DNA of 33,503 nucleotides from Schwartzia succinivorans DSM 10502. Its GTDB lineage: Bacteria > Bacillota > Negativicutes > Selenomonadales > Selenomonadaceae. The stretch is taken from the NCBI RefSeq assembly GCF_900129225.1, contig NZ_FQUG01000015.1, forward strand, positions 1-33,503. The letters run 5' to 3'. The position numbers and the translations under genes are program-made. Of the stretch, positions 2,112-13,640 are shown one piece after another; within the stretch, counting starts at the first letter, position 1, and every line of letters starts with the position of its first letter. A model generated the notes under the pieces. That model did no database searches. It was not told the DNA's origin and saw only the letters and a list, made by a program, of their open reading frames with translations.

Positions 2112-2168
2112 CAGATATCCCTGCCTTTCTTATTCTCCGCACTCTATTTTACCAAAGAGCAGATAAAA

Positions 2169-2198
2169 AAAGAACCCTGCTTTAATGCAGGATTCTTT
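2169..2198 (-). terminator. Terminator of the symporter/5-oxoproline operon
   Basis: 12-bp stem with one mismatch (AAAGAATCCTGC / GCAGGGTTCTTT read on the minus strand), 6-nt loop, followed by TTTTTATC. It closes the long operon that begins at 8763. Confidence 0.85.
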
Positions 2199-2219: not shown

Positions 2220-3668
2220 TCAGATTCTCTGATGCGCAGCTTCAATTTCATCAGTTTCTGCGCAGTAATCTACGTCCTCACCGTTTTTCTCACGGACAAC
2301 GACTGCCTCCTGATACTCGAAGCATTCTTTCGCAATATCATTGCTGAGCCAGAGCAGGCAGATGAGGTTCGGAATAGCCATGAGACCGTTCATCGTATCG
2401 GAGAAGTTCCATACGACCTCAAGTGTCGTCGTAGCGCCGATGAACGTGATGAGACCGAAGATAACACGATAGCTCATAATAACCTTACGGTTCTTGATAA
2501 GATATTCAAGTGCTTTTTCACCGTAGTATTCCCAACCAAGAATCGTCGAGAAAGCAAACAGTGAAAGCGCGATGGAAACGATAAGCTTTGCATAATCGCC
2601 AAAAACGCTGCTGAAAGCAAGAATCGTAAGCTGTGCACCCGATACCAGTTTGCCGGTCGCGGGGTCTACGGTGCCGAGTACTCCTGTGGATGCAATAACA
2701 AGACCTGTGAGCATGCAGACAATCATCGTGTCAAAGAAGGTTCCTGTCATGTTTACATAGCCCTGACGGGATGCATGGTCCGTACGTGCTGCGGCTGCCG
2801 CAATCGGAGCAGAGCCAAGGCCTGCCTCGTTGGAGAATACACCACGGGCAACACCCCAGCGCATGGAGGTCAGCATGGAAGCTATAATAGAACCGCCAAC
2901 GCCGCCTGCAACCGCATCAAAGGAGAATGCCATGCGGAACATTTCAGCAACACCTGCAGGAATAGCAGAGATATTAACAATGATAACGACCATTGCTGCG
3001 ATGAAGTAAAATACTGCCATCGTAGGAACGATAACACTGGATACCTTGCCAATGCTGTGAATACCACGGACAAGGATTGAAACGGATGCCACCATGATGA
3101 CAGCGCCTGCCACCCAGGTCGGAATCCCGTAGCTTGACGAAAGTGCCGAAGCAATGGAATTAGCCTGCGTCATATTACCAATGCCGAAAGAGGAAAGAAC
3201 AACAAAGATTGCAAACAGCGCTGCCATCGTGCTTCCGATGAACTTGTTGCTGATACCGTGCTTCATTGCATACATCGGACCACCGGCCATTTCACCAACG
3301 CTGTTCGTCTCGCGGTATTTGACGGCGAGAACAGATTCACCGTATTTAGTGGAAAGACCGAACGCCGCGCTTATCCACATCCACACCAGAGCACCCGGTC
3401 CACCGAGTACCATAGCGGTAGATACACCGACGATATTACCTGTTCCCACTGTAGCGGAAAGTGCCGTCATAAGGGACTGGAACGGGGAAATATCTCCCTC
3501 ATGTTTGTTTTTCTGACGGAAAATCATCTGAACTGCATAACCGAGATTTCTCCATGGAAGGAATTTCAACCGAATTGTTAAAAATATACCGGTTCCAACG
3601 AGCAGAGCCAGCATAACCGGTCCCCACACAAAATTGTTAACATCCGCGAGTAGCTTTGATACATCCAT
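2220..3668 (-). CDS. alsT: Alanine/glycine:cation symporter (AGCS family)
   Basis: Sodium-coupled amino acid uptake protein of the inner membrane, AGCS family (AlsT, DagA, AgcS). About 482 residues with 10-11 hydrophobic segments. Family hallmarks are visible: FVWGP near the N terminus, SALSATVGTGNIVGVSTA (a substrate/Na+ site region), GGPGALVWMW, GGPMYA, and RGVFSNEAGLGSAPIAAA. The start at 3668 is preferred over the upstream ATG at 3686 because AAAGGGG lies inside that extension, 9 nt ahead of the ATG at 3668. It is the last gene of the 5-oxoproline operon, 55 nt after pxpA. Family members carry L- or D-alanine or glycine; D-alanine would fit the D-amino-acid transaminase in the same operon, but this is inference. 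Confidence 0.93.
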   Translation of the reverse strand: MDVSKLLADVNNFVWGPVMLALLVGTGIFLTIRLKFLPWRNLGYAVQMIFRQKNKHEGDISPFQSLMTALSATVGTGNIVGVSTAMVLGGPGALVWMWISAAFGLSTKYGESVLAVKYRETNSVGEMAGGPMYAMKHGISNKFIGSTMAALFAIFVVLSSFGIGNMTQANSIASALSSSYGIPTWVAGAVIMVASVSILVRGIHSIGKVSSVIVPTMAVFYFIAAMVVIIVNISAIPAGVAEMFRMAFSFDAVAGGVGGSIIASMLTSMRWGVARGVFSNEAGLGSAPIAAAAARTDHASRQGYVNMTGTFFDTMIVCMLTGLVIASTGVLGTVDPATGKLVSGAQLTILAFSSVFGDYAKLIVSIALSLFAFSTILGWEYYGEKALEYLIKNRKVIMSYRVIFGLITFIGATTTLEVVWNFSDTMNGLMAIPNLICLLWLSNDIAKECFEYQEAVVVREKNGEDVDYCAETDEIEAAHQRI

Positions 3669-3723
3669 TTTAAAGACCCCTTTCACATACTATATAGCCT
3701 CTCCCATAACCCGACTGTTTTCG

Positions 3724-4494
3724 TCAAGCAATCACCTCCCTTAAGGAGACGATGCTTATACCGTTTTCCTTTAGTGCCTGACTTATTTTTTTTGCAAAAA
3801 CAAGAGCCTTCATGGAATCTCCGTGCAGGCATACGCTGTCTGCCTGTACCTCGATTTCTTTTCCCGTGACAGCTTTCACTGTATGGTTCTTAACCATCGA
3901 AATGACACGGGCGATGGCCTCGTCTTCATCTGTAATCATGGCGCCAGGCTTCGAACGCGCTACCAGAGAGCCGTCCTCCTCGTATGCGCGGTCAGCAAAT
4001 ACCTCGCTGGCGCCGCGGAGACCGACATCCTTTGCAGCTGCAAGAAGCTTCGAGCCTGAGCCTCCCATCAGGATGAGCGATGGATCCACTGCCTTAACAG
4101 CCTTGCAGATAACCTCGGCCATTGCCTCATCCTTTCCTGCCATGTTGTACATGGCTCCGTGGGGCTTGACATGCTGCAGCTTAATCCCCTCGGCCTCGCA
4201 GAAGGTCTTAAGCGCTCCGACCTGGTACATAACCATGGACCGAAGCTCAGCAGGACTTGTCTGAAGCTGCCGCCTTCCAAAGCCCACAAGGTCGGGAAAT
4301 CCCGGATGTGCTCCTATGGCAACACCTTTATCTTTGCAAAGAGTTACTGTTTTCTCCATAACCAGAGGGTCGCCTGCATGAAATCCGCAGGCAGCGTTTG
4401 CCGAGGAAATATATTCGGCGATGTCTCCATCCATACCGCAGGTATAATTTCCAAAGCTTTCGCCCATGTCACAGTTCAAATCAACCTTATCCAT
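3724..4494 (-). CDS. pxpA: 5-oxoprolinase subunit PxpA (LamB/YcsF family)
   Basis: One of three subunits of the bacterial ATP-dependent 5-oxoprolinase, which opens 5-oxo-L-proline (pyroglutamate) to glutamate. The N-terminal VDLNCDMGESFG (residues 3-14), the ANAACGFHAGDP block, HPGFPDL..FGRRQ and HVKPHGAMYN are typical of the family; 256 residues is normal. A GTG at 4503 is in frame, but AGGAGG directly touches it and sits 7 nt before the ATG at 4494, so the ATG is chosen. It is separated from pxpB/pxpC by a D-glutamate cyclase-like gene, which is unusual because pxpB-pxpC-pxpA commonly lie together. Confidence 0.94.
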   Translation of the reverse strand: MDKVDLNCDMGESFGNYTCGMDGDIAEYISSANAACGFHAGDPLVMEKTVTLCKDKGVAIGAHPGFPDLVGFGRRQLQTSPAELRSMVMYQVGALKTFCEAEGIKLQHVKPHGAMYNMAGKDEAMAEVICKAVKAVDPSLILMGGSGSKLLAAAKDVGLRGASEVFADRAYEEDGSLVARSKPGAMITDEDEAIARVISMVKNHTVKAVTGKEIEVQADSVCLHGDSMKALVFAKKISQALKENGISIVSLREVIA

Positions 4495-4512
4495 TCGCTT
4501 CACCTCCTGCCC

Positions 4513-5298
4513 TTAGTATTTAAGATTAACATTCTTTACATCCGTTATGAGCATGTGTCCCGGCGCGTGTGTAATTACGAATTCGGGCTTTGATTCCATT
4601 ATGACGTTCTGCGGTGTTACTCCGCAGGGCCAGAACACAGGAACCTCTCCGTCCTTTATGGTAACCATATCGCCGTAATCCGGATGCTGCAAATCATTTA
4701 TCCCGATTGCCTCAGGTGTGCCGATATGAACAGGCGCTCCGTGTACTCTCGGCATCTGCCCCGTAATAAGCACAGCCTTTGGAACGAGTTCATGAGGAAT
4801 CGGACGCATGGAAACAACCATATTCCCCTTGAAAATCCCTGCAGGCACGCATGGGATGCTTGTACGATACATAGGAACATTGCAGCCTTCCTCTATCTGA
4901 CGTACAGGAACATCCGCTGCCAAAAGGTCGCTCTCAAAGGAGAAGCTGCAGCCTATAAGAAAGCTGACGAAATCATCTCTCCAAAGTTCCGAGACATCCG
5001 TATATTCTCCTGCGAGTTCGCCTTTTTTATAGACGCGGTATTTCGGAAAATCCTTCGCAATATCCACGTCCTCTGCTATCTGATGAAGCTTTCTGGAACC
5101 TGTGTCGCTGACCTCAAGAATAGGACAGGGCTTCGGGTTGCGCTGTGCAAAAAGAAGAAAATCATAAGCATTTTCCCTCGGAATCGTTACGAGGTTTGCC
5201 TGTGCATACCCTCTGCACATTCCTGAGGTCTGTGATGTGATTTCTCCTTTTCGTATGAGTCTGCGCACCTCCGCAGGTGTCATTGCTCCATAATCCAT
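4513..5298 (-). CDS. D-glutamate cyclase-like protein, DUF1445 family (putative hydro-lyase)
   Basis: 261 residues. The family pattern is clear: TSGMCRGYAQANL (24-36), FAQRNPKPCPILEV (50-63), GCSFSFE (116-122), EEGCNVPMYRT (136-146), HGAPVHIG (186-193), VFWPCGVTPQ (221-230) and HAPGHM (244-249). This family, often annotated as putative hydro-lyase, corresponds to the N-terminal half of human mitochondrial DGLUCY, which interconverts D-glutamate and 5-oxo-D-proline. The start ATG 5298 has GAGGG about 9 nt upstream. It lies between pxpC (30-nt gap) and pxpA (18-nt gap), so its product is tied to 5-oxoproline metabolism. The partner half is encoded at 7924-8763. No catalytic residue can be named with certainty. 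Confidence 0.9.
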   Translation of the reverse strand: MDYGAMTPAEVRRLIRKGEITSQTSGMCRGYAQANLVTIPRENAYDFLLFAQRNPKPCPILEVSDTGSRKLHQIAEDVDIAKDFPKYRVYKKGELAGEYTDVSELWRDDFVSFLIGCSFSFESDLLAADVPVRQIEEGCNVPMYRTSIPCVPAGIFKGNMVVSMRPIPHELVPKAVLITGQMPRVHGAPVHIGTPEAIGINDLQHPDYGDMVTIKDGEVPVFWPCGVTPQNVIMESKPEFVITHAPGHMLITDVKNVNLKY

Positions 5299-5328
5299 GT
5301 GATATACCCTCTTTTCTTCCAGCCGGAT

Positions 5329-6279
5329 TCATCCAAAGATACTTTTCAAACCCTGCAGCAGCCTCTCGGTAAAGGATGGCGGTCTGTGGAGTGTCTGAGC
5401 CTCCTCAGCCGTAATCTTCTCAAATCTCACCTTATCTCCGGGACGAGCCTGAGCAAGCTTTGGAAGGTCAAGTGAAAGCACTGTTGCAATCTTTGCATAT
5501 CCTCCGGTGGTCTGATGGTCAGCCATCAGTACTATTGGATTTCCGGCTGCCGTTACCTGAATCGAACCAAACACGATACCGTCAGAAACAATATCCGTGC
5601 CCGATTTGCTTTCAATCGTCAGCCCTGCCAGACGAAGACCCATGCGGTCGCTGTCCGGAGTTATTTCATAATCTGAGTTCAAAAAATCATGCCAGCCTTT
5701 TTCTGTAAAGGCATCATCCTGAGGACCCGGGATAACACGAACCTTTATGTTAGAGGTATATGTAACAGGCTCAAGCTCTTTCCCTTCCGCCAGAAGCTTT
5801 GAGAATGTCTTCTCATCAGGCTCGATAACTTCAAGGATATCATCCTTCTTTAACGGGCGTCCCTCAAGACCTCCGATATGACACTTCATATCTGTGGAAC
5901 GGCTGCCCATTACCTCGGGCACCTGAATGCCTCCGTAAAAAGCAAGATACCCTCTGCAGCCGCTCATGGCTGCTCCTATCTTAAGCACCTGTCCGGGGCA
6001 AGCTCCGACTCTCTTGTAGCGGGGTACAGGAATGTCATCAAGAGTTGCCTTCATGTCAGCTCCCGTCAGCGCAAAAATCATACGGGACTGAAACTCCAGC
6101 GATACACCCAGCATCGTCATTTCAAGAACAGCAGCTCCGCCTCCGGCAAGCTCTACTGCTGCTTCATAGGCATCTGTGTCCATGACTCCGCAGGGCCGTA
6201 TTCCGCTGCTCTGATATCCGAAGCGGCCTCTGTCCTGAATTGTCGTAAGTCCACCGGGTGACAATATACGAATGCTCAT
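5329..6279 (-). CDS. pxpC: 5-oxoprolinase subunit PxpC (biotin-dependent carboxyltransferase family, KipA-like)
   Basis: 316 residues, family AHS2 (allophanate hydrolase subunit 2-like). Together with PxpB it activates 5-oxoproline using ATP before PxpA completes ring opening. Visible hallmarks are GGLTTIQDRGRFGYQSSGI (near the start), GVMD, FALTGADMKATLDD, GYLAFYGGIQVPEVMGSRST, GPQDDAFTEKG and SDRMGLRL..GTDIVSDGIVFGSIQV, plus QTTGGYAKIATV near the end. The ATG at 6279 overlaps the pxpB stop by 4 nt (ATGA) with GGAGG 7 nt upstream, so it is preferred to the in-frame GTG at 6285. The two subunits are translationally coupled. Confidence 0.94.
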   Translation of the reverse strand: MSIRILSPGGLTTIQDRGRFGYQSSGIRPCGVMDTDAYEAAVELAGGGAAVLEMTMLGVSLEFQSRMIFALTGADMKATLDDIPVPRYKRVGACPGQVLKIGAAMSGCRGYLAFYGGIQVPEVMGSRSTDMKCHIGGLEGRPLKKDDILEVIEPDEKTFSKLLAEGKELEPVTYTSNIKVRVIPGPQDDAFTEKGWHDFLNSDYEITPDSDRMGLRLAGLTIESKSGTDIVSDGIVFGSIQVTAAGNPIVLMADHQTTGGYAKIATVLSLDLPKLAQARPGDKVRFEKITAEEAQTLHRPPSFTERLLQGLKSIFG

Positions 6280-6971
6280 GCCCACGCCTCCGGATGCTCA
6301 CGAATCTCATCGTACTCGTCTTCCCCGATAGGTACGAAACGGATGTAATCTCCTGCCTTGCACAGAATCGGTTCCTCACGGTTCGGGTTGTAAAATTCGA
6401 TAGGCGTCGAGCCTATAATTCTCCACCCTCCGGGAGAAGCAATCGGATATACACCTGTCTGATTGCCACCGATAGCCACCGAGCCGGCAGGGATAGAAAG
6501 CCGCGGCGTCTTGAGACGCGGTGCGGCAATCCTTTCATCCAGTCCGCCAAGGTAGGCAAAGCCCGGAAGGAATCCCAGCATGTAGACACGGTAATCTGTT
6601 CCTGAGTGAATTTTTACAATCTCCTCACGGGACAGCCCAGTTACCTTCTCCATATCAATAAGGTCTTCCCCATATTTCCCTCCGTAGCAGCAGGGAATGC
6701 GAAGTATCCTCTTTTCCTTTTTCTCCTCAGCCGATGAAGTCAAATCAAGCTTTTCAATACCCTCACGCAAAGCCCTCATTGAAGTGCGCTTCGGGTCAAA
6801 CAAAATCAGGAGGGATCTGAAGGTCGGAATCATCTCCTCAACACCTTCAAACTGATGCTTCCGAATCTTCCCTGCCAAAGCATTAACCGCGTCGTTTACA
6901 GCTTCGTCGATATATTCTCCGAAATCCACAACAAGCGCCCGGTCTCCCTCCGGCATGATTCTCATTTCCAT
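6276..6971 (-). CDS. pxpB: 5-oxoprolinase subunit PxpB (KipI/allophanate hydrolase subunit 1 family)
   Basis: 231 residues, family AHS1 (cyclophilin-like fold). The family's characteristic stretches are present: GDRALVVDFG (9-18), IPTFRSLLILFDP (49-61), IPCCYGGKYGEDL, HSGTDYRVYMLGFLPGFAYLGGL in the middle, and GSVAIGGNQTGVYPIASPGGWRIIG. It acts with PxpC and PxpA as ATP-dependent 5-oxoprolinase. In Bacillus the homologous pair KipI/KipA was first seen as a sporulation kinase inhibitor, now understood as part of this enzyme. It is 41 nt after the aminotransferase gene and overlaps pxpC by 4 nt. Confidence 0.94.
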   Translation of the reverse strand: MEMRIMPEGDRALVVDFGEYIDEAVNDAVNALAGKIRKHQFEGVEEMIPTFRSLLILFDPKRTSMRALREGIEKLDLTSSAEEKKEKRILRIPCCYGGKYGEDLIDMEKVTGLSREEIVKIHSGTDYRVYMLGFLPGFAYLGGLDERIAAPRLKTPRLSIPAGSVAIGGNQTGVYPIASPGGWRIIGSTPIEFYNPNREEPILCKAGDYIRFVPIGEDEYDEIREHPEAWA

Positions 6972-7012
6972 TACTTCCGCCCCCGATTCATTCCCTTGAA
7001 AGTCTGCATCTC

Positions 7013-7879
7013 TCAGGACTCAGCTTTCTCAGAAACAGGTTTATTGGTGGCTTCAAGGAATTCATCAACAACAGCCTTGCGAATCTTTTCATAAAGCTCA
7101 GGAGCCTTGCCTCCAACCGGTTTTCCATCTACATGGTCAACACGCAGGCAGAAGTTCGAGGAGCTGGTTACGAGAATCTCGTCTGCTTCCATGAGATCCT
7201 TCAGATAATACGGTGTCTCGCTTACCGCGATGCCGAGCTCCTTGCATTTGCGGATGAGGTGTGCTCTTGCAATACCCGGAAGAATCATGTTATCCGTCGG
7301 TGCAGTGAAGAGCTTGCCGTCCTTCAGAATGTGGCAGTTGCTGTGTGCACACTCTGTAACGCGTCCGCCATGACGATAGAAGATTGTCTCCTTGCAGCCT
7401 GCTCTCTTTGCATGCTCTGCAGCAAGAACAGACGGCAGAAGGTTCAGAGTCTTGACATGGCAGTATAGGAAACGTTTATCTTCTTCCGTAATTACCTGAA
7501 TCGGCTCAGTACCGTCAGAAACAGTTGCCGGGACAAGCATAACCCAGAGGTTGCCCGGGCCTTCCGTGAAAGCGTGGTTGCGGATACCCGTGCCGCGCGT
7601 TACCTGATAATACACGAACAAATCTCCCGTATCCACCATAAGAACCAGCTTCTGGAGAAGCTCCTTCAGCTCATCCTTAGTGACCGGCATAACAATATCC
7701 ATCAGAGCAGCGCTGTTAAAGAAACGGTCAACATGCTCATCAAGAGCGAAGATATTGTAATTGCGGCTCGGGCCTGCATCATACACACCATCACCAAACC
7801 AATGAACACGGTCGTTCATTGGGATTGTCATGCTCTCAAGTTCACCGATTTTTCCGTTGTAGTATCCAAGGTTTTTCAT
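7013..7879 (-). CDS. dat: D-amino-acid aminotransferase (class IV PLP enzyme)
   Basis: 288 residues, fold-type IV PLP enzyme. The lysine that would bind PLP is K143 in HVKTLNLLPS, aligned with the DIKSLNLL segment of Bacillus D-amino-acid transaminase. TRGTGIRNHAF (94-104) contains R100-x-H102, the R-x-H pair that binds the substrate carboxylate in D-specific enzymes and helps separate them from branched-chain aminotransferases. The expected reaction is D-alanine + 2-oxoglutarate to pyruvate + D-glutamate, reversible, in the cytoplasm. GGAGG lies about 12 nt before the ATG. It is sandwiched between the two D-glutamate cyclase halves in one operon, which strongly supports D-glutamate as its product or substrate. 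A branched-chain specificity is the main alternative. Confidence 0.87.
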   Translation of the reverse strand: MKNLGYYNGKIGELESMTIPMNDRVHWFGDGVYDAGPSRNYNIFALDEHVDRFFNSAALMDIVMPVTKDELKELLQKLVLMVDTGDLFVYYQVTRGTGIRNHAFTEGPGNLWVMLVPATVSDGTEPIQVITEEDKRFLYCHVKTLNLLPSVLAAEHAKRAGCKETIFYRHGGRVTECAHSNCHILKDGKLFTAPTDNMILPGIARAHLIRKCKELGIAVSETPYYLKDLMEADEILVTSSSNFCLRVDHVDGKPVGGKAPELYEKIRKAVVDEFLEATNKPVSEKAES

Positions 7880-7923
7880 TATATAATGCCTCCAGGTTTG
7901 TTTTGAATTTTGAATTTTGTTTG

Positions 7924-8763
7924 TCAGCAGGAAATTCTCTGACGTACCTCCGCATGAAGAGCGTCCACAATTTCCTTTTCAATATCCTCACTGAAACCGT
8001 CAACATGCGGTACTCTCTCATGTGTCACACCGTCTACGCTTCCAATCTCTACTGTCTGTGCGAGATAGGAATTGATATCATCATAGGGCATAAGAAGCGA
8101 AAGCCCGCTGAGGATAGAAAGATATGCTGTGATGCCGTATGCGCCCCAGTTGGAAACGCTGGCAATAACAAGGCGGTCAACCGTAACACGGCAGGGAACA
8201 AGGCTCAGCTCGCGCTGGATAACATCAGCCATACAGCCCATTCCGATTTCATTTCCTCCGTCGCCGACACCAACAGTTCGTATGGAATATTCCGGAGCAA
8301 GCTCGAACAAAATATCAGTCGGAGCATTATGCTCTTTAATGGATTTGCCGCGCATATTCTCGTAATCATCACGCGTGTTGATACCGCAACGCTCTACCGA
8401 AATCATTCCTACAGGGCGATAGCGCGTAATAATATTCCTGAACTCGTCCTTGGTCGTATTTACATCTACCGGAACCACCGCGATGTTTCTGATCGTGAAC
8501 AGTACCGTGTATGCGCTGTCAGTGACAATAACCGGCTCCCAGCCAAGCTTCTTCAGTGCCTTCGCAAGAACGACCGTACCAACAGGACCATCAGTCTCCG
8601 GATAACCTGCAACGTAGAACCCTGTTGTCAAAAAGATAACTCCGGGCTCCCAGGACAAAATTTCCCGTGCAGCCAGCTCACAGTAGGATTCCTCCATATG
8701 ATCCTTCAGCTTCAGCATCCCACGCTTCGAATGACGCAAGATGATGTCTTCAATGCTTTCCAT
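7924..8763 (-). CDS. D-glutamate cyclase-like protein, DUF4392 family (DGLUCY C-terminal-like)
   Basis: 279 residues. Landmarks are ETDGPVGTVVLAKAL (56-70), GVGDGGNEIGMG (165-176) and ASVSNWGAYGITAYL (201-215); these match my memory of the C-terminal domain of vertebrate DGLUCY, the mitochondrial D-glutamate cyclase that makes 5-oxo-D-proline. The other half of that enzyme resembles the gene at 4513-5298. It is the first gene of the operon; GGGAGGGA lies 6-8 nt before its ATG. No signal peptide or membrane segment, so cytoplasmic. Whether this half alone is catalytic, or needs the DUF1445 protein as a partner, cannot be decided from sequence. Confidence 0.87.
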   Translation of the reverse strand: MESIEDIILRHSKRGMLKLKDHMEESYCELAAREILSWEPGVIFLTTGFYVAGYPETDGPVGTVVLAKALKKLGWEPVIVTDSAYTVLFTIRNIAVVPVDVNTTKDEFRNIITRYRPVGMISVERCGINTRDDYENMRGKSIKEHNAPTDILFELAPEYSIRTVGVGDGGNEIGMGCMADVIQRELSLVPCRVTVDRLVIASVSNWGAYGITAYLSILSGLSLLMPYDDINSYLAQTVEIGSVDGVTHERVPHVDGFSEDIEKEIVDALHAEVRQRISC

Positions 8764-8818: not shown

Positions 8819-8827
8819 ATTATAGCA
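8819..8827 (-). promoter_or_regulatory. Putative extended -10 promoter of the D-glutamate/5-oxoproline operon
   Basis: On the minus strand TGCTATAAT, a TGn extended -10 with perfect TATAAT (8824-8819). No good -35 (GGAGAT at the right distance), which fits a promoter needing an activator. Transcription would start near 8812, about 49 nt before the first ATG. Confidence 0.5.
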
Positions 8828-8916: not shown

Positions 8917-9381
8917 ATGAAAAGCGACCAGCCTGATCATATTGACTACAGAATCATAGAAATACTGCAGCAGGATGCGAGAACCCCATTAAAGGAGATA
9001 GCCCGTCAGGTCTTTCTTTCCTCCCCCGCCGTATCAGCGCGCATACAGCGGCTCATCGACGCACAGTACATAACCGGCTTTCACGCTATCGTAGATAACA
9101 AGAAATTCGGCTTCCACATCAAGGCCTTCATAAATCTTGAGGTCCATCAGATGGATAAGGACACCTTCTACCCGTTCATCCGCAGTCAGAACTGTGTTAT
9201 CGGATGCAACTTCGTTACAGGTGATTACTCCATGCTGCTCGAAGCGGTCTTTCCCAGTACGGAAAAGCTGGATGCTTTCCTCAACGAGCTGCAGAAGTTC
9301 GGTAAAACCAAGACGCAGATTGTATTTTCAACAGTCATCGAGCATCGTGGTCCGACCATAAGTGAGATACCGCCAAAATAA
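8917..9381 (+). CDS. Lrp/AsnC family transcriptional regulator
   Basis: 154 residues, the usual length. An N-terminal winged helix-turn-helix (about 8-60, with RTPLKEIARQVFLSSPAVSARIQRL as two shorter helical blocks) is followed by a RAM ligand-binding domain (about 68-145) containing CNFVTGDYSMLLEAVF, the usual amino-acid-sensing segment. AGGAAGGG lies 7 nt before the ATG. It is divergent from the D-glutamate/5-oxoproline operon and shares a 153-bp promoter region with it, so it is the likely local regulator, perhaps responding to alanine, glutamate or 5-oxoproline. That last point is inference. Confidence 0.93.
   Translation: MKSDQPDHIDYRIIEILQQDARTPLKEIARQVFLSSPAVSARIQRLIDAQYITGFHAIVDNKKFGFHIKAFINLEVHQMDKDTFYPFIRSQNCVIGCNFVTGDYSMLLEAVFPSTEKLDAFLNELQKFGKTKTQIVFSTVIEHRGPTISEIPPK

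Positions 9382-11681: not shown

Positions 11682-13640
<1,959 letters not shown>

Follow-up and report, generated by a model that had tools for sequence, protein, structure and literature searches.

The domains DUF1445 and DUF4392 are joined, in that order, in the mitochondrial protein DGLUCY (9030617O03Rik) of animals (PMC5132392, PMC5339696). According to the part of the DGLUCY report accessible to us, the mouse protein was assayed as a D-glutamate cyclase, in the cyclising direction, and its loss leads to accumulation of D-glutamate; humans excrete 5-oxo-D-proline (PMC5339696), and therefore the N-terminal half in animals does not pass this lactam on efficiently. The existence of two prokaryotic genes that are fused in higher animals was noted in 2016, with the suggestion of "sequentially linked" functions (PMC5132392), and Table 1 of a study of gut bacteria gives human GLUCM no full-length and six split homologues, "split" meaning at most three features apart (PMC12547972). 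In the literature searched, no cyclase assay was found for DUF1445 or DUF4392 proteins from bacteria. The locus described here shares both domains with DGLUCY but carries them as two genes, DUF4392 first and four genes apart, and its run also encodes an aminotransferase and the 5-oxoprolinase PxpABC.

A search of control genomes returned PF07286 (DUF1445) matches in B. subtilis, whose YcsI we take to be the DUF1445 protein. The operon of this species, pxpA (ycsF), ycsG, ycsI, pxpB (kipI), pxpC (kipA) and kipR, thus likewise places DUF1445 inside pxpABC, but it includes an NRAMP-type Mn importer and, in the accessible part of the report, no AGCS symporter is named (PMC10448178). PF14336 (DUF4392) had no match in any of 14 control genomes, B. 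subtilis and C. glutamicum among them. The pxpTABC operon of C. glutamicum, which shares PxpABC with the present run, is used for 5-oxo-L-proline and supports growth, as far as the accessible part of its report goes (PMC13274462), in a genome where the control searches found neither DUF1445 nor DUF4392.

Structures are available for relatives of both proteins. TON_0340 of the archaeon Thermococcus onnurineus (4fc5, 4dwz, 5gkx, 5gl2-5gl4) was assayed as a Mn-dependent phosphatase, with metal ligands E59, D61, E115, D157, E161 and D246 and activity abolished in the D157L and E59Q variants, and DUF1445 is stated to be absent from archaea (PMC5132392). The UPF0317 proteins PSPTO_5379 (2pif) and Atu3911 (3db9), which have the DUF1445 fold, are structural-genomics entries with no function given in their titles or in PMC5132392.

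Organization of the Locus

The window, a stretch of 33,503 nucleotides from Schwartzia succinivorans DSM 10502, carries on its minus strand a run of seven genes from 8763 to 2220, encoding in transcription order DUF4392, a class IV aminotransferase, PxpB, PxpC, DUF1445, PxpA and an AGCS symporter (Table 1). The intergenic gaps, with start codons as listed, are 44, 41, -10, 30, 9 and 37 nt. The original prediction had read positions 4513-8763 as both halves of DGLUCY, encoded separately in one run with an aminotransferase, pxpB and pxpC between them, and this was borne out, both proteins scoring far above the cut-offs of the respective profiles.

Table 1. Genes and putative signals of the run and its flanks.
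Feature	Position	Strand	Evidence and remarks
DUF4392 / PF14336 (GLUCM-like_C) protein, 279 aa	7924..8763	-	PF14336 241.9 bits, cut-off 27.9; first gene
Class IV PLP aminotransferase, D-amino-acid type by sequence	7013..7879	-	PF01063 148.3 bits
PxpB, 5-oxoprolinase subunit	6276..6971	-	PF02682 259.9 bits; TIGR00370 216.9, cut-off 145.55
PxpC, 5-oxoprolinase subunit	5329..6285	-	PF02626 306.4 bits; TIGR00724 304.8, cut-off 230.2
DUF1445 / PF07286 (D-Glu_cyclase) protein, 261 aa	4513..5298	-	PF07286 235.8 bits, cut-off 25; NF003969 424.6, cut-off 324
PxpA (LamB/YcsF), 5-oxoprolinase subunit	3724..4503	-	PF03746 347.3 bits
AGCS sodium:alanine symporter family protein	2220..3686	-	PF01235 and TIGR00835 above cut-off; last gene
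Extended -10 promoter-like TGCTATAAT	8819..8827	-	Upstream of DUF4392 gene; by eye, absent from site-scan list
Terminator-like hairpin and T run	2165..2191	-	3' of AGCS gene; by eye; scan lists hairpin on + strand
Lrp/AsnC-type gene, divergent	8917..9381	+	PF13404, PF01037

All three 5-oxoprolinase subunits are encoded in the run. PxpB passes the equivalog cut-off of TIGR00370, PxpC falls under that of NF045499 (248.1 vs 500), and PxpA scores above the subfamily models NF003814 and NF003816 and under the equivalog cut-offs of NF003813 (348.1 vs 392), NF003815 (318.4 vs 337) and NF003812 (275.2 vs 378). A promoter-like and a terminator-like signal appear to flank the operon, and a purine-rich ribosome-binding site is also seen by eye 5' of the DUF4392 gene; the two signals are suggestive only, because between 1500 and 9500 such sites are about as numerous as in shuffled sequence (11 vs 10.2 promoter-like, 9 vs 6.5 terminator-like). 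The divergent Lrp/AsnC-type gene is a possible regulator of the operon. Its relatives adjoin the module in loci L065, L066, L105 and L106 as well. The AGCS gene is not kept with the module, loci L061-L180 giving one other match, in L114, about 9 kb from the DUF4392 gene.

Distribution of DUF1445 and DUF4392

Across 398 genomes sampled from the phylum of the window, DUF1445 is present in 63 and DUF4392 in 42, and the two co-occur, as had been anticipated, in 31 of the 42 DUF4392 genomes against 6.6 expected. They stand side by side in 39 of 80 named-genome loci, DUF1445 coming first in 38 of the 39, as in the animal fusion. This association and order, and the activity of the fused mouse protein in the accessible part of its report (PMC5339696), agree with the original prediction of a two-protein D-glutamate cyclase, in which the domains would form one enzyme whose product is re-opened by PxpABC. 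However, DUF4392 occurs without DUF1445 in 11/42 genomes and DUF1445 without DUF4392 in 32/63, and, of 22 additional genomes with a lone DUF4392 locus, 10 lack both DUF1445 and PxpA; as either gene frequently occurs in the absence of its partner, the two are unlikely to be obligate subunits, and two enzymes acting in sequence are more likely. The separation of the two genes in the window and the lack of any frame with both domains in 160 loci and the window also speak against a single enzyme. Moreover, PxpABC opening the same D-lactam would create a futile, ATP-burning cycle, which only an inversion of configuration, or two enzymes working on different enantiomers, would avoid. We therefore consider the two-subunit cyclase unlikely.

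The link to 5-oxoprolinase is real, PxpA being present in 62 of the 63 DUF1445 genomes, although the proposed cooperation with it was chemically incomplete, a cycle over one lactam leading nowhere. Of the 62 genomes that carry DUF1445 together with pxpA, 51 have them at most 6 kb apart on one strand; DUF1445 close to pxpA is thus a common arrangement and not special to this locus, where the placement of DUF1445 inside the pxpBCA run is confirmed in gene order. Another 39 genomes carry DUF1445 and DUF4392 together at a locus that lacks pxp genes (39 of 40 such loci, L135 being left out). PxpA is encoded elsewhere in 28 of them, and the other 11 all carry Hydantoinase_B, the second family of ATP-dependent lactamases, which is weak evidence of a 5-oxoprolinase because the family is broad. 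In one of these 11 (L125), a gene for a 1273-aa hydantoinase/oxoprolinase protein, far under the curated cut-offs of the NCBIfam models matched, lies directly 5' of DUF1445-DUF4392.

DUF4392, DUF1445, the aminotransferase and Pxp genes occur together at 14 loci, the window included. A loose nitrogen-scavenging island whose members share no pathway would fit the variable gene order between loci and the inconstant AGCS gene, yet it is highly improbable given that the same set recurs, that the association is strongly non-random and that two members are fused in a single gene, PxpA to DUF4392, at L149. Since comparable sets of genes are seen again in other bacteria, the run probably represents a real pathway. 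The claim that no such system had been described has to be narrowed, as the animal fusion (PMC5132392) and the split pair of gut bacteria (PMC12547972) were known; no description of the full composition, with aminotransferase and pxpABC, was found in the literature searched.

The DUF4392 Protein

The AlphaFold model of the window DUF4392 protein (pLDDT 97.6) matches TON_0340 with a Z of 38.9 and an rmsd of 1.6 over 260 residues, the nearest folds beyond it being DHH phosphoesterases (RecJ, Z 11.8). Aligned on the TON_0340 ligands, residues E56, D58, E124, D168, E172 and D255 are predicted to bind metal, and all six are invariant in 118/118 DUF4392 matches of at least 255 aa from the collected loci and the window. 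In the reading proposed below, the protein is a di-metal enzyme, probably using Mn.

A metal-dependent phosphatase that aids PxpABC, for instance on gamma-glutamyl phosphate, with no cyclase involved, would accord with the TON_0340 assay and its variants, with the DHH-like fold and with the L149 fusion; PxpA itself is assumed, in the accessible part of the C. glutamicum report, to make gamma-glutamyl phosphate and also to dephosphorylate it (PMC13274462). Such an accessory role sits poorly with the growth of C. glutamicum on PxpABC without DUF4392, and with the absence of PxpA from 8/42 DUF4392 genomes of the phylum sample and 12/22 of those with a lone DUF4392 locus. Animals, to our knowledge, have no PxpABC. 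Their fused protein nevertheless acts on D-glutamate, as the accessible part of PMC5339696 has it, and we hold the phosphatase reading to be improbable. DUF4392 is not tied to the pathway proposed below either, because of the same 8/42 genomes and the 10/22 others that have neither DUF1445 nor PxpA. It adjoins MurD, the D-glutamate ligase, in L126, whose genome lacks DUF1445 and PxpA, and in genomes with a gamma-glutamyltransferase next to DUF4392, DUF1445 and PxpA sit at another locus.

The DUF1445 Protein

The DUF1445 protein scores above the curated equivalog cut-off of NF003969 (PRK05463, "putative hydro-lyase"). Its AlphaFold model (pLDDT 95.6) resembles 2pif (Z 36.3) and 3db9 (Z 31.9), the next fold among the matches listed being the NrpR-like MJ0159 (3nek, Z 9.9); the matches listed include no two-cysteine, cofactor-free racemase (proline, Asp/Glu). 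C117, C225 and H186 are invariant in 106/106 DUF1445 matches of at least 235 aa, both cysteines are also present in 2pif and 3db9, and in the model each is flanked by a strand on one side and a helix on the other.

These cysteines raise the tentative and rather doubtful possibility that DUF1445 is a 5-oxoproline racemase acting through C117 and C225. If it were, D-glutamate would be converted to 5-oxo-D-proline by DUF4392, to 5-oxo-L-proline by DUF1445 and to L-glutamate by PxpABC with ATP, an ATP-driven, directed D-to-L route into which the aminotransferase would feed other D-amino acids. This would also account for the company DUF1445 keeps with two families of ATP-dependent lactamases.

The Aminotransferase

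The D-amino-acid assignment originally given to the aminotransferase needs qualifying: TIGR01121 is its best NCBIfam model and the R-x-H motif is kept, but its 211.1 bits fall under the 277.45 of the D-amino-acid transaminase equivalog cut-off. Its best solved relative is the D-amino acid aminotransferase 1daa (6.8e-45), and R100, H102, K143 and E176 align with R98, H100, K145 and E177 of that enzyme, R-x-H being the carboxylate trap of the Bacillus enzyme. R-x-H occurs in 19/19 of the aminotransferases listed, those scoring above 350 bits (L112 and L119 duplicate L065 and L066), and the enzyme probably makes or uses D-glutamate. It goes with DUF4392, lying near pxp genes at 17/23 loci with DUF4392 nearby and at 0/33 without, in a biased sample where most of the 23 were picked for likeness to the window DUF4392 and several are closely related.

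The same partnership, with DUF1445 tracking 5-oxoprolinase, would suit a division by enantiomer in the reverse direction, PxpABC acting on 5-oxo-L-proline while DUF4392 and DUF1445 hydrolyse 5-oxo-D-proline to D-glutamate, which the aminotransferase turns into 2-oxoglutarate. Both enantiomers would be used and no futile cycle would arise. The equilibrium between D-glutamate and 5-oxo-D-proline, however, favours the lactam, and ATP-free hydrolysis would need a strong pull. The animal enzyme, moreover, was assayed cyclising in the accessible part of its report (PMC5339696), and this reading seems quite unlikely.

A Proposed D-Glutamate/5-Oxoproline Module

The reading we prefer, at a probability of about 0.5, is that the run is a D-glutamate/5-oxoproline module with the DGLUCY halves as separate, sequential enzymes. 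Through the aminotransferase, 2-oxoglutarate and D-amino acids such as D-alanine would be linked to D-glutamate, which DUF4392 would interconvert with its lactam, 5-oxo-D-proline, chiefly by cyclisation; DUF1445 would work on 5-oxoproline at the step adjoining PxpABC, which with ATP would convert 5-oxo-L-proline to L-glutamate. In sum, D-amino nitrogen and otherwise accumulating D-glutamate would go back to L-glutamate. What the sequences show is the gene set with its recurrence and co-occurrence pattern, the conserved metal site and the two invariant cysteines; the substrates, the direction and the exact DUF1445 reaction are what we infer here, and inversion at 5-oxoproline is an unproven candidate way out of the futile cycle.

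Points counted for the pathway were the mouse DGLUCY assay (from a partly accessible source), the metal ligands (118/118), the 17/23 vs 0/33 loci, PxpA in 62/63 genomes, Hydantoinase_B in the 11 PxpA-less genomes, L125, MurD in L126, the L149 fusion and an alanine racemase that follows PxpA at L107 and L108, both from spirochaetes. Counted against it were the TON_0340 phosphatase assay, the DHH-like folds, the TIGR01121 shortfall, the biased 23-vs-33 sample, DUF4392 without PxpA, the gamma-glutamyltransferase genomes, human 5-oxo-D-proline excretion (same partly accessible source) and the breadth of Hydantoinase_B. Matches to MurI and to Alr are present in the genome of the window itself, and the operon should therefore not be needed for cell-wall D-glutamate.

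Implications

DGLUCY is a two-domain protein, and its separated halves here allow a direct and cheap test of which half does the chemistry. The gene associations assign the halves differently, DUF4392 to the D-amino-acid-type aminotransferase and DUF1445 to lactam-opening enzymes. The module would name a function for the DUF1445 family, found in 63/398 genomes, mostly beside pxpA, and now annotated as a putative hydro-lyase, and points to a route for the recovery of D-amino acids by bacteria.

Organization of the operon

The DUF4392 and DUF1445 genes of the window lie in a tight run of seven genes on the minus strand, with intergenic gaps of -10 to 44 nt. Their coordinates and family names had been given correctly in the original prediction, as judged from profile matches and gene positions in the window, and the current Pfam names of both families are D-glutamate cyclase or D-glutamate cyclase-like.

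Genes of the seven-gene run in the window, in order of transcription
Gene	Position	Strand	Basis
DUF4392	7924-8763	-	profile match
Class IV aminotransferase	7013-7879	-	profile match
PxpB	6276-6971	-	profile match
PxpC	5329-6285	-	profile match
DUF1445	4513-5298	-	profile match
PxpA	3724-4503	-	profile match
AGCS symporter	2220-3686	-	profile match

By eye, the sequence upstream of the DUF4392 gene shows an extended -10-like element together with a ribosome-binding site, and that downstream of the AGCS gene a hairpin followed by a run of T, promoter-like and terminator-like sites being about equally frequent in shuffled sequence. An Lrp/AsnC gene, divergent from the run, begins at 8917. The AGCS gene was rejected as a conserved member of the module, as among the loci compared it adjoins the module in the window only. 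The window's genome holds one MurI and one Alr match, both outside the operon, and the aminotransferase is thus not the sole source of D-glutamate. Elsewhere in the window, a 648-aa ORF (11682-13628, minus strand) resembles lysyl-tRNA synthetase, with a C-terminal part that by eye resembles a tRNA-binding domain.

Prokaryotic DUF1445 and DUF4392 proteins were noted in 2016 to be fused in higher animals (PMC5132392), a characterisation of mouse DGLUCY followed in 2017 (PMC5339696), and six split homologues have been tabulated from gut bacteria (PMC12547972). Among the papers listed in our search of the open-licence literature, we found no description of a DUF1445/pxp set joined by DUF4392 and a D-amino-acid-type aminotransferase, nor of differing partners for the two halves of DGLUCY.

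Co-occurrence and spread of the module

Among 398 genomes drawn evenly from the window's phylum (probably Bacillota), DUF4392 is present in 42, of which 41 score over the family cut-off, while 63 genomes have DUF1445 and 121 have PxpA. DUF4392 and DUF1445 occur jointly in 31 genomes against 6.6 expected (Fisher p 1e-19), DUF4392 and PxpA in 34 against 12.8 (p 9e-13), and DUF1445 and PxpA in 62 against 19.2 (p 3e-37), all of these p values being too small because the sampled genomes are akin to one another; counted by family, DUF4392 is present in 17, and 12 of these include a genome with both DUF4392 and DUF1445. The sole DUF1445 genome of the sample that lacks PxpA (G332) is 86 % complete. 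DUF4392 and DUF1445 lie at most 6 kb apart on the same strand in 16 of the 31 genomes with both, and DUF1445 is upstream in 15 of these 16 close pairs, the window being the exception. The original prediction of a two-protein D-glutamate cyclase is thus borne out as to the association of the two genes, but either gene frequently occurs without the other, and the two-subunit reading was therefore set aside as the main one. Nor is the placement of DUF1445 inside the pxpBCA run special, since DUF1445 is near pxpA in 51 of 62 genomes; B. subtilis likewise has a ycsI gene in its pxp operon (PMC10448178).

A scan of named genomes, from which the best 80 DUF4392 loci were taken, was counted on profile matches, longest-ORF gene calling having overlooked many genes. 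DUF1445 shares the locus in 55 of the 80, and in 39 the two genes adjoin on one strand, with DUF1445 first in 38, the same order as in the animal fusion. Complete PxpABC is found in 14 loci, all with DUF1445 and 11 with the aminotransferase, and neither DUF1445 nor a pxp gene is near DUF4392 in 22; some of the loci so counted are truncated by contig ends. The 11 full-set loci come from Schwartzia, Thermoflexaceae, Lachnospiraceae, Clostridiales, Oscillospiraceae, Peptococcaceae, Candidatus Avidehalobacter, Treponema and Eggerthellaceae, which we take to represent Bacillota, Spirochaetota and Actinomycetota. The Eggerthellaceae locus (L109) has DUF4392 and the aminotransferase on the strand opposite the other module genes, facing them. 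A Sulfurospirillum MAG (L129) and a Dehalococcoidia MAG (L159, whose contig stops upstream) carry the module set without the aminotransferase. The closest relatives among the 80 loci are from Schwartzia (64-66 % identity), and these (L101, L102, L121) share the window's order of DUF4392, aminotransferase, PxpB and PxpC, which continues with DUF1445 and PxpA in L102; L101 and L121 are truncated by contig ends. PxpB and PxpC domains share one open frame in L108:6518-8299 and also in L184, L187, L191 and L210.

The two halves keep different partners

DUF1445 tracks the lactam-opening enzyme whether or not DUF4392 is present. Among loci with any Pxp gene, 17 of the 23 with a nearby DUF4392 have an aminotransferase no more than 6 kb away, versus 0 of the 33 without, a contrast that is indicative only, because the 23 loci were mostly selected for resemblance to the window, the 33 being DUF1445 loci of the phylum sample. 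These counts take in loci truncated by contig ends, and three of the six DUF4392 loci counted as lacking the aminotransferase (L067, L149, L159) stop just upstream of the module. Three duplicates (L112, L119 and L135, of L065, L066 and L062) were omitted from this comparison, as was L214, which has DUF4392 and no pxp gene, so that the pxp counts are unchanged. The genome to which L214 (G267:C167) and L220 belong has four DUF4392 genes, three together on an 18-kb contig and one on a separate contig.

In 40 loci of the named genomes DUF1445 and DUF4392 occur together but no pxp gene is present, and 39 of these were analysed (L135 omitted), among them one, L128, in which the two genes are divergent. 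PxpA is encoded elsewhere in the genome for 28 of the 39; all 11 genomes lacking PxpA have Hydantoinase_B and all 10 lacking Hydantoinase_B have PxpA, so that none of the 39 is without both (p 0.02). All seven of the highest-scoring Hydantoinase_B matches belong to genomes lacking PxpA (p 2e-4, a pattern spotted post hoc). One of the 11 genomes lacking PxpA, a Latescibacterota MAG, encodes a putative 1273-aa single-chain hydantoinase/oxoprolinase immediately 5' of DUF1445-DUF4392 (L125:5338-10813, plus strand). Among solved structures its nearest relatives are an N-methylhydantoinase and a protein entered as 5-oxoprolinase, and its scores against the NCBIfam models of caprolactamase and acetophenone carboxylase subunits fall far short of their cut-offs. 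DUF1445 is thus nearly always accompanied by a 5-oxoprolinase-type enzyme.

DUF4392 is able to stand alone, since 10 of the 22 genomes with an isolated DUF4392 locus have neither DUF1445 nor PxpA; DUF1445 is found elsewhere in 11, PxpA in 10 and both in 9. DUF1445 occurs without PxpA in two of the 22, G428 and G456, and Hydantoinase_B, checked in G428, is present there. MurD is the D-glutamate ligase, and in a genome with no DUF1445 or PxpA match its gene (L126:11028-12392, plus strand; TIGR01087 over cut-off) follows DUF4392 by about 185 nt. A gamma-glutamyltransferase gene adjoins DUF4392 in six loci without DUF1445 (L077, L088, L092, L094, L097, L178), the genomes of which carry DUF1445 and PxpA at a separate locus, and this suggests a source of D-glutamate such as gamma-glutamyl polymers. 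Two spirochaete modules have an alanine racemase gene immediately 3' of PxpA (L107:2429-3577 and L108:11577-12725, both plus strand). PxpA is fused to DUF4392 in a single 523-aa frame in a Clostridia MAG from horse faeces (L149:2040-3611, plus strand), a possible tie between both functions that comes from one MAG, where an assembly error is conceivable. The Chloroflexota neighbours of DUF4392 (recurrent MutS, short-chain dehydrogenases and others) yielded no pathway, and several module neighbours scanned against Pfam gave no match or unrelated families.

Active sites and a possible division of labour

Profile comparison found DUF1445 and DUF4392 to be unrelated (probability 0.2 %). Conserved residues were checked in the sufficiently long matches, 106 of 109 for DUF1445 (at least 235 aa) and 118 of 133 for DUF4392 (at least 255 aa), and the alignments A2 and A3 comprise 64/65 and 65/96 non-redundant sequences. 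The six metal ligands of TON_0340, an archaeal DUF4392 protein, align with E56, D58, E124, D168, E172 and D255 of the window protein and are invariant in 118/118 matches; the DUF4392 model is closest to TON_0340 (Z 38.9), followed by DHH phosphoesterases (RecJ, Z 11.8). C117, C225 and H186 of DUF1445 are invariant in 106/106 matches, both cysteines are kept in the solved relatives 2pif and 3db9, and in the model each is located between a strand and a helix. The nearest other fold is that of MJ0159 (3nek; Z 9.9, rmsd 4.0 over 166 residues), whose entry is named nitrogen repressor-like protein, and 2-oxoglutarate is a signal for NrpR repressors (PMC9765008); this likeness agrees weakly with a putative five-carbon dicarboxylate site in DUF1445. 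No racemase relative of DUF1445 was among the fold-search matches listed.

PxpABC catalyses the ATP-driven opening of 5-oxo-L-proline (PMC13274462), and in C. glutamicum the enzyme operates in a genome where profile searches found neither DUF1445 nor DUF4392. The E. coli control genome gave no match to PF14336 or PF07286. Were a cyclase to make 5-oxo-D-proline and PxpABC to open the same enantiomer, ATP would be burnt in a circle. The escape would be either separate enantiomers for the cyclase and PxpABC or inversion of the lactam, for which DUF1445 would be the candidate. That DUF1445 inverts 5-oxoproline, as its association with 5-oxoprolinase and its two invariant cysteines might suggest, is a speculative and rather unlikely proposal. 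The safer claim, to which we give a probability of about one half, is that DUF4392 would be a metal-dependent D-glutamate enzyme and DUF1445 a separate enzyme acting on 5-oxoproline.
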